The translations under genes were made by a program, and so were the position numbers. Below the pieces are notes generated by a model that did not search any database, was not told the DNA's origin, and saw nothing but the letters and a program-made list of their open reading frames with translations. From an uncultured Rhodobiaceae bacterium (GTDB lineage: Bacteria > Pseudomonadota > Alphaproteobacteria > Rhizobiales > TMED25), in contig CAJWEW010000008.1 in assembly GCA_913030915.1 (NCBI GenBank), forward strand, positions 1 through 59,162: 59,162 nt of DNA. The letters are read 5' to 3'. This document shows positions 8,602 through 15,213 of the stretch, one piece after another (positions within the stretch are counted from its first letter, which is position 1; every line of letters starts with the position of its first letter).

Positions 8602-9939
8602 TCAGTTAATATTTTGTATATCATCTGCCAGCAGCCACTCGGATGAGTATGGCGTGAGACCATTCTTTGCACGCTTTGCAAAGTTACGTGCCATATCTTT
8701 GTTTCCAAGTATTGAATAATACTGAGCAACACTTAGGTCAGCCATCGGGATATTATTTAATTTAAAATACGACTTTGATAACTGCCAATAAACTCTTACA
8801 TTCCTGATGGTTTGGTCTTTGTGAGGATCCAGAAGTGAGATGCTTTCCCGTATATTTTCATCCCCACCTATCTGAGTGAGAATTTTTGCATGAAGAATTG
8901 AAAACTCTAACTCTGGTTGTTCAAGTAGGGCTTTGCCCTTCTTTAAGCTCTCGATTGCAAGTTCATTCTCATTAATTTCAAAATATATTTGCGCTAAAAG
9001 TTCGTAAAAATATGCATATTCGAATTCCTTAATCAAGCTTATCATTATTGTTTCGGATATATCATACTTACCCTTTTGATAATATGAAATTGCTTTTGAG
9101 TAATTTGCATATGGGGTATTATCAGCGAATTTATTTGGAAGATCTAAGTAACCAATAATCTTAGCTCTGGCAAGATTGTGCCTATGTATGAGTTCTTCAC
9201 TATCTTCAATATTGTAAAATCTCTGCTTAGATATCTTGTTTTTAAGGAAATCTATTCTGTCTTGGGGCAATTCATGGGTTAACTCTAATGGATTTATATC
9301 ACCGCCATATATTTCTTGTGATTTCTTAATTTTTTCAAGCATTTGGAGTAAGCCAATTGATGACTCTCCAATTGACTCCATCATACTGATGGCACTCATA
9401 TCTGCTTCATATTCTTGAACCCGTGAATGTTTAAGATAATCTCTTCTTGCAAGATCAGAACCACCGAGTGCAATTCCTGTACTAATATTAGACAGTGCGT
9501 CTGAGTCAGTAAGCATTCCAGTTAAGCCCGTACCAATACCAATAATTTGCGCAATATTTTGTTTCTTCTGGAAGTTCTCATACTCAATCATCCGAGTTAT
9601 GTGATGATTGTTCAAAATATGACCAATCTCATGAGCAATAATAGATTTAACTTCATTTGGTCTATCTGAGTGATATATTAAGCCAGTATTTATGTAAATG
9701 TTACCCTGAGCGGTTACAAATGCATTAATGCTTTGGTCTGATACGATGAATATATTCTGACTTGTTACCCCAAGCCCGATTTTGTGAAGATCCGCGGTAT
9801 ACTCAGACAGGAGCTTTTCAATTTCAGCATCCTTAACAATTGTCTTGGAATAAGTGGCACTTATTGGAAGGTAAAGAATAAATAGGATAAGTATGCATTT
9901 CTTTAGTATTTCTAAAAAAATCTGACTCCCATTAATCAT
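8602..9939 (-). CDS. M48-family metalloprotease with TPR region (BepA/YfgC-like)
   Basis: About 445 residues. A hydrophobic signal segment (CILILFILYLPISATYS) is followed by an M48 peptidase domain with the zinc motif HEIGH (IIAHEIGHILNNHH) and the third ligand in QEYEADMSAI. Its C-terminal half contains TPR-like helical repeats. BepA-type proteins act in the periplasm on outer-membrane protein assembly. I chose the ATG at 9939, which overlaps the rne stop by 8 bases (ATGATTAA); a start at 9966 would lie deeper inside rne and lacks a better signal. It sits downstream of rne, as in related genomes. Confidence 0.9.
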   Translation of the reverse strand: MINGSQIFLEILKKCILILFILYLPISATYSKTIVKDAEIEKLLSEYTADLHKIGLGVTSQNIFIVSDQSINAFVTAQGNIYINTGLIYHSDRPNEVKSIIAHEIGHILNNHHITRMIEYENFQKKQNIAQIIGIGTGLTGMLTDSDALSNISTGIALGGSDLARRDYLKHSRVQEYEADMSAISMMESIGESSIGLLQMLEKIKKSQEIYGGDINPLELTHELPQDRIDFLKNKISKQRFYNIEDSEELIHRHNLARAKIIGYLDLPNKFADNTPYANYSKAISYYQKGKYDISETIMISLIKEFEYAYFYELLAQIYFEINENELAIESLKKGKALLEQPELEFSILHAKILTQIGGDENIRESISLLDPHKDQTIRNVRVYWQLSKSYFKLNNIPMADLSVAQYYSILGNKDMARNFAKRAKNGLTPYSSEWLLADDIQNIN

Positions 9940-11980
9940 CCCACCAACCTGTTTTTGGATTTTCAACTGGTTTTAGTGTATTCTCTGTTTTTTTCTTATT
10001 GGAGGGTTTTTTCTTTGGTGCCGCTTTCTTTGCTTTTGCTGTTTTTTTGTCTCCCTCTGGATCACTAGTTTTTTCTTTAATGCGTTTTTTTGCTTCTGTA
10101 TTTTTCTGTTTCTTTGGCTTTACAGCGCTTTTGGTGTCTGCTATTTCCTCTTCAGCCTCTAATTTTTCTTTTTTATTTGTATTTTTGCTCGTGATTTTTG
10201 TTTTTTTCTGACTTGTTGGCGGCTTACGCTTTGTTGTCTTCTTGGAACTGACCTCAGTTTCTAGATTAATATCCTGTTCAGTCTCATCGTCAATAGAGGT
10301 TTTGTCATCTGATTTATCCACGTAAACACTGTCAATACTTAATGCTGAGTTGGTCGACTTAGGATCTAACTTTAATTCGCTCCTCTCAATTTTAAACGTT
10401 TCATCCCCATCAATCTCTGCAACCTTTATTTCAATTATTATTTCGTATCTATCTTCTATTTCGGATAAATTTTTTCTTTTCGAGTTTAGCAAATAATTCG
10501 ATAATTCAATATTTGTGTATAGTACGATGTTATTTTTACCATTTTTTATAAGATCTTGCTCAATAGCACGAATAATTTGAACGGATTGAGAGCTTATTGA
10601 ACCAACTCTTCCAATACCATTACAGTGATAACATTTAGTCATTGAAGACTCCAGTAGGGAGGACCGCATTCTCTGCCTTGACATTTCCATTAGTCCAAAT
10701 TGGCTAATATGACCAACTTGTATTCTTGCTCTATCCATTCGAAGCGCTTCTTTTAATCTCTTCTCAACCGATCTATTATTTCTTCGTTCTTCCATGTCAA
10801 TATAATCAATGACAATAAGACCTGCTAAATCCCTTAGCCTCAATTGTCGAGCTACTTCATCTGATGCCTCAAGATTTGTTCTTAAAGCTGTATCTTCAAT
10901 ATTGTGTTCTCTTGTCGATCTGCCAGAGTTTACGTCAATGGCAACGAGTGCTTCCGTTTGGTTGATTACAAGGTATCCTCCTGAAGGAAGTCGAACATTT
11001 GCATGGAACATATTATCTAGTTCGGACTCCGCGTTATAATTTATGAAAAGAGGGACGGCGTCCAAATATTTTTTTATAAATTTAACATGGCTAGGTATCA
11101 GCATTTTCATAAAGTTTTTAGCTTCAAGAAATGCGTTTTCTCCTGAAATTACAATCTCTTCTACTTCTTTGTTGTAAAGGTCTCTGATTGACCTTTTCAC
11201 CAAGCTACCCTCTTCATAAATTAGTTCAGGAGCAGAGGAATTCAAAGTTAGGTCCCTTATCGTTTGCCATAACCGGGTTAGATATTCAAAATCTCTCTTA
11301 ATTTCTGTTTTAGTCCTTTGGGCGCCCGCTGTTCTAATTATGACCCCCATTCCATCTGGGATTTTGAGTGAGTCTATTGAGTCTTTGATTTTGTTTCTTG
11401 TCTTGATATCCGAGATCTTGCGAGATATTCCACCCCCTCTTGCGGTATTGGGCATTAAGACACAATAGCGACCTGCTAATGAGATATAGGTTGTCAAGGC
11501 AGCCCCTTTATTACCTCTCTCTTCCTTTGTAACTTGCACGAGTATGATTTGTCTTTTTTTTATTACCTCCTGTATCTTGTATCGTTTCCTCTGCTTCGTG
11601 CTTCTCTTGGACTCTTCATGATTAATTACATCCTCAGCCTCATCAGACGGAGGTTCATCCATATTTTCAGAAGCATCACTGTTTGAAGCTAATTCAGATT
11701 CCTCATCCAGTAGTTTTTTTCTCTCTGAGGTTGGTATTTGATAATAATCTGGATGGATCTCATTAAAGGCAAGAAACCCATGCCTGTTGCCACCATACTC
11801 AACAAATGCGGCTTGAAGTGAAGGCTCAACTCTTGTGACTTTTGCTAAGTATATGTTTCCACGGATTTGATTTCTATCTTTGGCCTCAATATCAAATTCT
11901 TCAATTTTACCTTCAGTATTGAGAACAATGACTCTAGTTTCCTCATCATGATTTGCATCGATGAGCATTCGGTTTGGCAT
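9932..11980 (-). CDS. rne: Ribonuclease E/G
   Basis: Endoribonuclease of mRNA decay and rRNA processing. The 682 residues comprise an S1 domain split by an acidic insertion (about residues 95-130), the DNase I-like catalytic core with Asp349 (AIDVNSGR) and Asp392 (VIDYIDM), and the zinc-link CYHC at 450-453. A lysine- and threonine-rich low-complexity tail runs from about residue 570 to the terminal GWWDD. The tail is much shorter than in many alphaproteobacterial RNase E proteins, so the degradosome scaffold is reduced. The catalytic core looks complete. Confidence 0.95.
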   Translation of the reverse strand: MPNRMLIDANHDEETRVIVLNTEGKIEEFDIEAKDRNQIRGNIYLAKVTRVEPSLQAAFVEYGGNRHGFLAFNEIHPDYYQIPTSERKKLLDEESELASNSDASENMDEPPSDEAEDVINHEESKRSTKQRKRYKIQEVIKKRQIILVQVTKEERGNKGAALTTYISLAGRYCVLMPNTARGGGISRKISDIKTRNKIKDSIDSLKIPDGMGVIIRTAGAQRTKTEIKRDFEYLTRLWQTIRDLTLNSSAPELIYEEGSLVKRSIRDLYNKEVEEIVISGENAFLEAKNFMKMLIPSHVKFIKKYLDAVPLFINYNAESELDNMFHANVRLPSGGYLVINQTEALVAIDVNSGRSTREHNIEDTALRTNLEASDEVARQLRLRDLAGLIVIDYIDMEERRNNRSVEKRLKEALRMDRARIQVGHISQFGLMEMSRQRMRSSLLESSMTKCYHCNGIGRVGSISSQSVQIIRAIEQDLIKNGKNNIVLYTNIELSNYLLNSKRKNLSEIEDRYEIIIEIKVAEIDGDETFKIERSELKLDPKSTNSALSIDSVYVDKSDDKTSIDDETEQDINLETEVSSKKTTKRKPPTSQKKTKITSKNTNKKEKLEAEEEIADTKSAVKPKKQKNTEAKKRIKEKTSDPEGDKKTAKAKKAAPKKKPSNKKKTENTLKPVENPKTGWWDD

Positions 11981-12266: not shown

Positions 12267-14105
12267 TTGTTGTTAAAGTTCATAACGACTTTATTCAGTT
12301 TGTTTGTATTGGCAGCTATTAGTTTTTTTGCATTTCTAATTTTCATGTATTTTTCCTATACTAAAGATATTGTCGTATTCGAAAATATCTTAAAATCTCA
12401 ACCGGTGAGTGCAAACAGATTTTTTTCAGAAGATGGAATGTTAATCGCAGAAGAATATGATGTTCATCGTATTTATGTTACTGATAAGAATATACCCGAG
12501 TATTTGAAGCTCGCATTTATATCCGCAGAGGATAAAGGCTTTTACAATCATCCTGGATTTGATTTTAAGAGTATTATAAGGGCAACCTCACAGAATATTT
12601 ATAACTATTTGTTTGTTCGCGATAACAGCAGATTAATTGGCGCCTCAACAATAACCCAACAATTAATTAAGAATTTACTTAATGATAATGAACGGACTAT
12701 TACACGAAAGTTGAAAGAGATTATCTATGCCATAAAATTAGAGAGATCTCTGTCAAAAGAGAAAATACTAGAGCTGTATTTAAATGAAATATACTTAGGG
12801 AGGGGTGCTTTTGGAGTAGTTGCGGCCTCTGAGAAGTATTTTGGTAAAACGTTAAATGAATTGGATATTGAAGAAATGGCTCTTCTAGCTGCCCTTCCAA
12901 AAGCACCAAGCAATTATGATCCTCAAGAAAATTACGAATCGATCAAAGAGAGAAGGGATTGGGTTTTAGAAAGAATGGCAGAAAATGGTGTGATAACAAA
13001 AGTGGTAGCCCGCATCATGCAAGAGTCATCAATAAATTATATTGATAAGGATTTATATCGCAAGCCAAATCTTTTGGATAAAAATATTGCCGATAAGGTT
13101 CGGAGTAATCTTTACTTTGACGCTAACACAGCTAGAAATTTCGGACTCACACACTTCTTGACCATCAATCAAAATGCAACAGATTATATTAGTGGCCAGA
13201 TCGAGAAGCTAGAAAAAATACACAATCAAGGTGAATTACATGCCGATATTAGAATTATATCCCTTATTTCTGGAAGAACCCTTGTGGATATTCAAGACAG
13301 TCAAAAAAATACTAAAAACTATAAAATCAATATGAATGAGAGATCAATATTGAGACCTATTTATTTCAGCGGCATCATAAAGTCTGGGATAGATTTAAAT
13401 AAAAAATTGCTCTCAAGGGATGTTGACATTGAAGATGCAGATCCGGCTCTTGTTTCAGTTCGAAAATTATTTCGCTCGAGAGCTGCAATAGTTGATCAAA
13501 ATCTGAAGGGTAACGCGGAAGCATATTTATTAGAATATCTTCAAGATAAAATAGAAGGAAATATGATGACCTATAATTGGGACGAAAAAATAGAATTGAA
13601 CTTAGATGACATATTATCATTATACATTCCAATCCTTGCAGGTGGACTTCAACTCGATACATATCACGTGGACAAAATTGATGATAAGAATGGAAATCAA
13701 ATTTATTTGCATAAAAATGAAGACAACAAAGAGGGCCTCAAAAGCGAGATTGCCTTTAAAGTAAAAAGCTTATTTTGTGATATTGAGGTAGTGCAAATAA
13801 GTAGAAATAATAAGTATATGGAACCAAGAAATTGCGTTTACTACAACCAAAATGGAGATAAATTATTTTATTTAAAATTTACTGGCAATGTTGCTTTTTT
13901 TGCCATTATCTCAGGTGTTGATTTGCAAAGGGGGGATCATTTGATAACTATGCTGGATAACATCGCCTCAGACTCACTTGATTCAGTAGATAAGGTGCAG
14001 TTCAATAATTTTTTAATCCCTGATGAAATTAATGTACAAAAAATAAACAAAAATACTGGGAACAGGTATAATTATAAAGATAATTACGTTTGGGAGTTTT
14101 TCTAA
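12267..14105 (+). CDS. mrcA: Class A penicillin-binding protein (PBP1A type) with degenerate transpeptidase domain
   Basis: 612 residues, against roughly 750-850 for the family. A transmembrane anchor (residues 5-31) precedes a complete GT51 glycosyltransferase domain: Glu88 in SAEDKGFYNHPGFD, GASTITQQLIKNLL at 125-138 and ELYLNEIYLGRGAFG at 169-183. The transpeptidase part can be followed but its motifs are broken. The S-x-x-K site reads S360-I-L-R363, the S-x-N site reads S404-R-A406, and no K-T-G motif is found. It should still polymerise glycan strands but not crosslink. The start is TTG 12267, decided by GAGGGAGA six bases upstream. Placement between rne and prfB supports the mrcA assignment. 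Confidence 0.85.
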   Translation: MLLKFITTLFSLFVLAAISFFAFLIFMYFSYTKDIVVFENILKSQPVSANRFFSEDGMLIAEEYDVHRIYVTDKNIPEYLKLAFISAEDKGFYNHPGFDFKSIIRATSQNIYNYLFVRDNSRLIGASTITQQLIKNLLNDNERTITRKLKEIIYAIKLERSLSKEKILELYLNEIYLGRGAFGVVAASEKYFGKTLNELDIEEMALLAALPKAPSNYDPQENYESIKERRDWVLERMAENGVITKVVARIMQESSINYIDKDLYRKPNLLDKNIADKVRSNLYFDANTARNFGLTHFLTINQNATDYISGQIEKLEKIHNQGELHADIRIISLISGRTLVDIQDSQKNTKNYKINMNERSILRPIYFSGIIKSGIDLNKKLLSRDVDIEDADPALVSVRKLFRSRAAIVDQNLKGNAEAYLLEYLQDKIEGNMMTYNWDEKIELNLDDILSLYIPILAGGLQLDTYHVDKIDDKNGNQIYLHKNEDNKEGLKSEIAFKVKSLFCDIEVVQISRNNKYMEPRNCVYYNQNGDKLFYLKFTGNVAFFAIISGVDLQRGDHLITMLDNIASDSLDSVDKVQFNNFLIPDEINVQKINKNTGNRYNYKDNYVWEFF

Positions 14106-14117
14106 GAGGGTATATTT

Positions 14118-15213
14118 ATGGATTTTGATTTTAAGACAATAACACAAGATATTGATAATAAACTAAAATTGACTTGGAGGGGTCTTTGAATTAGAAACCG
14201 CACAAGAAAGGATAAAAGAATTAGACGATCTAATTGAAAATGAAAATTTTTGGAATAACCCTGAAAATGCTAAGCAGGTTATGCAAGAAAGACAAAATCT
14301 TGAGCAATGTTTGAGCAGCTATGAGGAATTAAAGGCTTTATTTTCAGACACCTTAGATATCTATCAATTAGCATTAGATGAGAGTGATTTAGATTTGTTA
14401 GAGGAGTCACAAAGAAATATCTACGATATACAAAAAAAAGTTCAATTAAAGTATATAGAAACACTATTTTCCGGGGAAGTTGACACTAATGATACCTATT
14501 TGGAAATACATGCTGGAGCAGGTGGTACTGAGAGCCAAGATTGGGTTAGCATGCTATTAAGAATGTATTTAAAATGGGCAGAAAAAAAAGGATATAAAAC
14601 AAATCAGATAAGTATGCATGATGGAGATGAAGCCGGCATAAAAAGTGTTATAATCTCTATTAGCGGCAAATTTGCTCATGGTTGGCTCAAACAAGAAAAT
14701 GGTGTACACAGACTGGTTCGAATATCACCCTTTGACTCAAATTCCAGAAGGCACACTAGCTTTGCCTCTGTCAGTATTTACCCAATAATAGATGATAAAA
14801 TTGATATAAAAATATCTGAATCAGATGTCAGGATTGATACTTATCGAGCAAGTGGAGCAGGCGGGCAGCATGTAAATACTACAGATAGCGCGGTGCGTAT
14901 TACCCATCTGCCAACAGGTATCGTAGTTCAATGTCAAAATGAAAGATCGCAGCATAGAAATAAAGAAACAGCATGGAACATGTTACGCGCAAAGATCTAT
15001 GAGAGTGAAATAAAGGCTCGAGAAGAAGCTGCCAATATCGCAAATATGGAAAAGTCAGATATTGGGTGGGGGCATCAAATCCGTTCTTATGTTTTACATC
15101 CATATCGTCAAGTAAAAGATCTAAGAACAAAACTTGAGAGCTCAAATCCAGACGCAATACTAGATGGAGATATTGATGGCTTTCTTGAGTCAGCCTTAAC
15201 AGAATTACTTTAA
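14118..15213 (+). CDS. prfB: Peptide chain release factor 2, with programmed +1 frameshift
   Basis: RF2 releases the finished peptide at UGA and UAA codons. The gene starts at ATG 14118, reads 23 codons to an in-frame TGA at 14187-14189, then shifts +1 and continues from GAA at 14188 to 15213, giving 364 residues. The SPF anticodon-like motif (VRISPFDS) and the catalytic GGQ (GAGGQHVN) are both present. It follows mrcA by 12 bases, as is usual in Alphaproteobacteria. Reading only the second frame from ATG 14281 would lose about 55 N-terminal residues and is not the real product. Confidence 0.96.
14176..14189 (+). promoter_or_regulatory. prfB programmed +1 frameshift site
   Basis: GGAGGGG (14176-14182) is an internal Shine-Dalgarno. 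The slippery CTT codon (14184-14186) is followed directly by TGA (14187-14189). Counting the core GGAGG, the spacing to CTT is three bases, as in the known RF2 autoregulatory site. Low RF2 stalls at UGA and favours the shift to full-length protein. Confidence 0.95.

Follow-up and report, generated by a model that had tools for sequence, protein, structure and literature searches.

A class A PBP with an intact GT51 domain and a transpeptidase-derived half lacking its catalytic motifs in a family of Alphaproteobacteria

The mrcA locus and its product

The window analyzed here is a stretch of 59,162 nucleotides from an uncultured Rhodobiaceae bacterium. At positions 12267–14105 of the + strand, it carries an open reading frame orthologous to mrcA (PBP1A), whose 612-aa product combines a GT51 glycosyltransferase (GT) domain with a pseudo-transpeptidase. 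The frame begins with a TTG codon preceded by GAGGGAG. It is flanked upstream by an RNase E/G family gene (9932–11980, − strand) and downstream by prfB (14119–15213, + strand), and both neighbors occupy the same place in the sister genus. The gene thus lies beside rne and prfB, the position characteristic of PBP1A, in agreement with the first-pass annotation, which had placed it at the mrcA location. The prfB gene itself shows an apparent classical +1 programmed frameshift near position 14187: its first frame stops at ...WRGL* (GGAGGGGTCTTTGA), after which the release factor resumes in the +1 frame.

The best NCBIfam subfamily for the mrcA product is PBP_1a_fam, with 261.7 bits, which is below the cut-off of 508.75. 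Searched with the whole product, Pfam recognizes the GT51 domain alone, and neither a transpeptidase (TP) nor an OB domain. A model helix and the hydrophobic sequence indicate an N-terminal transmembrane helix at residues 2–33 (12270–12365; this and all the features of the gene described below are on the + strand). The GT51 domain spans residues 60–237 (12444–12977), where Pfam Transgly matches with 206 bits. The four catalytic motifs EDKGFYNHPG, GASTITQQ, RKLKE, and KILELYLNEIYLGRGAFG are all present, as previously noted, and 52 of the 58 near-invariant GT columns are retained. The modeled domain matches the GT of Aquifex PBP1A with a VIA Z of 24. As judged from these conserved residues, the protein very likely has polymerase activity.

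Class A PBPs are regarded as bifunctional by definition. In the window protein, the TP-like domain (residues 321–612, 13227–14102) is inactive by motif. We aligned the protein with 18 intact PBP1A sequences from Alphaproteobacteria. The SxxK site, canonically GSAFKP, reads SILR (residues 360–363, 13344–13355), the serine being retained and the lysine replaced by an arginine. The SxN site, canonically SRN, reads SRA (residues 404–406, 13476–13484), and the KTG site is occupied by N522-C523-V524 (13830–13838). The signature of an active-site serine transpeptidase (SxxK, SxN, KTG) expected of a class A PBP is therefore missing, with the losses located where the first-pass annotation had reported them. 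The C-terminal half gave no PF00905 transpeptidase match in Pfam. An ordered set of the three motifs elsewhere in residues 300–612, which would have contradicted that annotation, was not found; the alternative placements considered (S397-VRK, S573-VDK, S512-RN, and K372-SG) are in the wrong order and context. Outside the GT domain, 20 of the 79 near-invariant columns are retained. The OB-like insert, about 107 columns of the consensus and present in the sister-genus proteins, is missing at the junction of residues 322/323 (13230–13235), so that the protein lacks the PF17092 domain that most alphaproteobacterial PBP1A proteins have between GT and TP. A few smaller loops are deleted as well.

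The TP fold can still be traced, as the same annotation had proposed. The segment LSLYIPILAGG lines up with the canonical ...NGG element, and the hhalign comparison of a genus-only with a canonical-only TP profile gave an E value of 1.8e-9 and a probability of 96% over 277 colinear columns. An AlphaFold2 model (mean pLDDT 75.8, pTM 0.62, stretch 379–439 unreliable), built on an alignment of canonical PBP1A proteins, matches class A PBP structures over its full length, and its residues 267–612 match the TP structures of PBP1b. Given this input alignment, the profile comparison is the more independent evidence for TP fold and descent. The TP half is thus recognizable by profile and fold yet devoid of catalytic residues. 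From the motifs, we consider the loss of transpeptidase catalysis close to certain.

Conservation of the motif loss and residual constraint

Orthologues of the window PBP1A are encoded in ten genomes of the genus (own genome included), with 68–81% or about 41% identity; two less complete genus genomes (73–75% complete) yielded no match. In all ten, the frame is open and the protein is about 600–620 aa long. The motif loss is common to all of them, an answer to the earlier question of whether close relatives share the substitutions: the first motif reads SILR, DLLR, NILK, or SILK, and neither SxN nor KTG is present. That ten separate genomes share this loss makes a chance effect or a misassembly very unlikely. 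The orthologues of G004 and G011 retain SILK, with SxN and KTG gone; by this motif reading, these two proteins might conceivably keep some residual transpeptidase activity.

In both genomes of the sister genus, proteins of 770–774 aa are encoded at the same place, in the order rne–mrcA–prfB. Their TP is still recognizable (PF00905, 70–82 bits) and the OB domain is present. The SxxK motif is SMLQ or SIIQ, SSN is intact, and KTG is replaced by KGG or KRG. Since these proteins lack the lysine of SxxK and the threonine of KTG and keep OB and SxN, the family ancestor had probably already lost catalysis. The sister genus probably displays an earlier stage of TP loss, in which these two residues went before the wider erosion. 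In the GT tree, each genus is supported by 100/100 and the two are joined with moderate support (84/77), so two separate losses are possible. Among 80 other alphaproteobacterial records, SxxK and KTG are intact in the related proteins wherever the region was covered and readable by the text pattern used; a few SxN strings fell outside this pattern. A CxxC pair found in a TP loop of canonical PBP1A is kept in the sister genus (L040 and L041) and lost in the window's genus.

For pairs with unsaturated synonymous change, dN/dS ranges from 0.20 to 0.45 in the TP-like half (95% bootstrap limits 0.13–0.74) and from 0.03 to 0.07 in the GT half; the former is constrained about 5–6 times less than the latter. 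Thirty-two columns of the TP-like half are invariant across the genus. They include Cys504 (13776–13778) and Cys523, the sole cysteines of this half, both invariant in the ten genus members. Cys523 occupies the place of the KTG threonine. That the two form a disulfide is a guess. Genus-wide conservation and dN/dS limits below 1 uphold the first-pass view of a domain under altered selection and not of a fresh pseudogene.

Wall enzymes of the genome and of its family

The host family apparently consists of uncultured, small-genome alphaproteobacteria. We surveyed 14 family genomes, seven of which are more than 90% complete with little contamination; the own genome is 93% complete, and individual enzymes listed here are missing from a few low-completeness genomes. 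The window PBP1A is the only GT51 protein of its genome. A second class A PBP, which would have pointed to a decaying copy, was not found there. An intact PBP1A of 813 aa was detected in G009 (L042, bases 191–2632 of contig C1). We treated it as probable contamination because its contig is 15 kb long, the contamination of G009 is rated at 7%, and the protein lacks an equivalent in the genus.

The own genome also encodes a single PF00905 protein, an FtsI that is intact with GSTFKP, SSN, and GKTG. Its gene belongs to a dcw cluster with murE, murF, mraY, murD, ftsW, and murG, as named from the translations. Across the genus, PF00905 finds an FtsI-sized protein alone, with one foreign-looking exception; in the sister genus, it matches the FtsI-sized protein and the weak TP of the PBP1A. 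A single SEDS protein, FtsW, is found in the family; its gene in the own genome is flanked by murD and murG. PBP2 and RodA were not detected in the family census. No MreB was found across the 14 genomes beyond two low-scoring matches per genome to the MreB model, which we read from their length and place as DnaK and FtsA.

Each genus genome encodes one YkuD protein, and the sister genus two. This protein is of the YcbB type (E value of 4.9e-51 to PDB 7aj9) and carries the catalytic cysteine motif SSGCVRV. One DacA-type carboxypeptidase is found per family genome, the own copy having SLTK, SAN, and KTG. The YcbB-type L,D-transpeptidase (LDT) and the DacA-type enzyme thus occur together in the own genome, and they are kept in nearly all family genomes. 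The first-pass annotation had expected cross-linking to fall to class B PBPs or LD-transpeptidases. This fits the genome, whose sole candidates are FtsI and the one YcbB-type LDT. Of 386 alphaproteobacterial genomes sampled, the own genome is alone in having exactly one GT51 and exactly one PF00905 match on separate proteins.

Known systems and proposed wall synthesis

Loci from other members of the order find their nearest matches among Hyphomicrobiales records. The group in question may be TMED25, marine Rhizobiales that receive a mention in PMC8879329. Hyphomicrobiales lack the Rod complex, so the missing PBP2, RodA, and MreB are ordinary in that order, where PBP1a is the elongation synthase. 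In Agrobacterium tumefaciens, this synthase is essential, about 30% of the cross-links are 3-3, and depletion of PBP1a raises the 3-3 share (PMC8546619). The window gene is orthologous to that of A. tumefaciens PBP1a by sequence and neighbors, and its product has the same GT51 half and transmembrane anchor. Unlike A. tumefaciens PBP1a, it lacks the TP motifs and the OB domain, and its genome encodes one GT51 protein versus several and one LDT versus 14. A second parallel comes from Escherichia coli, where the GT of PBP1b, DacA, and YcbB suffice to build the wall when the PBP transpeptidases are blocked, and where PBP1b S510A, with a dead TP, still works (PMC5089857). The window family similarly associates a class A GT without TP with a YcbB-type LDT and a DacA-type carboxypeptidase. 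However, the E. coli bypass was engineered and laboratory-selected, whereas in the family the combination has been fixed by evolution, FtsI is intact, and the LDT has a presumed role. Like MtgA (TIGR02070), the window PBP1A is a GT51 protein without a working transpeptidase. It differs from MtgA by its score (143.1 bits against a cut-off of 182.65), by about 370 further residues, and by its TP-derived ectodomain of 290 residues. A literature search, carried out mostly outside subscription papers, found no description of a naturally occurring class A PBP whose TP is inactive.

We propose that the window PBP1A is a naturally monofunctional, membrane-anchored polymerase and that FtsI and the YcbB-type LDT make the cross-links, which we regard as the likely arrangement. 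The ancestral PBP1A of the family would have lost TP catalysis; the window's genus would then have lost the OB domain, with the TP half eroding under relaxed but real purifying selection. The present protein would polymerize lipid II and make no 4-3 cross-links. As the family holds the parts of the E. coli bypass, septal cross-links may come from FtsI acting with FtsW, and those elsewhere probably from the single LDT, for which the DacA-type carboxypeptidase would trim stem peptides to the tetrapeptide substrate. By analogy with E. coli, we make the reasoned guess, slightly favored over its negation, that the LDT is the principal cross-linking enzyme outside the septum. The TP remnant may be kept as a folded ectodomain supporting the GT through folding, spacing, or partner docking. 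We put docking forward only tentatively, and the same reserve applies to the idea of a co-opted non-catalytic module that would tie the polymerase to the YcbB-type LDT or to FtsI. The first-pass annotation had similarly suggested that the remnant may have turned into a regulatory or binding domain, and that the beta-lactam response could be affected.

The remnant could also be explained by passive decay: in a streamlined genome, the TP half would be dispensable and kept only because the GT requires some segment behind it in order to fold, with no new function or special partner. We give this a minor share of the probability. The 5- to 6-fold higher dN/dS relative to the GT, the deletion of OB and several loops, and the retention of just 20 of the 79 near-invariant columns speak for it. 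Against it stand a frame that stays open at a similar length (about 600–620 aa) across ten genomes whose proteins share as little as about 40% identity, the 32 invariant columns with their two cysteines, and dN/dS upper limits below 1. Invariant positions and a fold kept in the model could alternatively reflect an unrecognized active site built from other residues. This is highly improbable, given that no Ser/Lys pair is invariant at the active-site positions and that SILR, DLLR, NILK, and SILK alternate within one genus.

A further alternative concerns the cross-links. FtsI is intact, and PF00905 matched no other protein of the own genome; it might make all of them, and the LDT would then remodel the wall or attach other things to it, and the wall would be 4-3, perhaps sparsely cross-linked. 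We give this, too, a minor share of the probability; against it, the YcbB-type LDT and the DacA-type enzyme are kept in nearly all family genomes, and Rhizobiales already rely on 3-3 links, as the A. tumefaciens values show (PMC8546619). The proposed division of labor between polymerase, FtsI, and LDT predicts a cell wall dependent on FtsI and one L,D-transpeptidase. In this family, evolution would have arrived at an equivalent of the YcbB-mediated PBP bypass obtained in the laboratory. A clade whose sole class A PBP has a dead TP would indicate that polymerization and cross-linking are separable in nature. Were the remnant indeed a docking module, non-septal wall synthesis by a polymerase, a carboxypeptidase, and an L,D-transpeptidase, without a D,D-transpeptidase, would exist naturally.

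Other wall-enzyme complements were observed outside the family. Five genomes of 1.3–1.4 Mb from family f91 (G103, G214, G370, G300, and G435) gave no GT51 match and one or two PF00905 proteins; these alphaproteobacteria are apparently without any class A PBP. The single-contig, 1.7-Mb genome G108 (family f96; L176) has one GT51 and one PF00905 match on a 1003-aa frame, apparently a class A PBP without detectable FtsI or PBP2. In G384 (f202) and in G075, G193, and G354 (f63), PF00905 matches lie on class B-sized frames alone and one GT51 is encoded elsewhere. These lone GT51 proteins may be MtgA or additional class A PBPs devoid of a TP.
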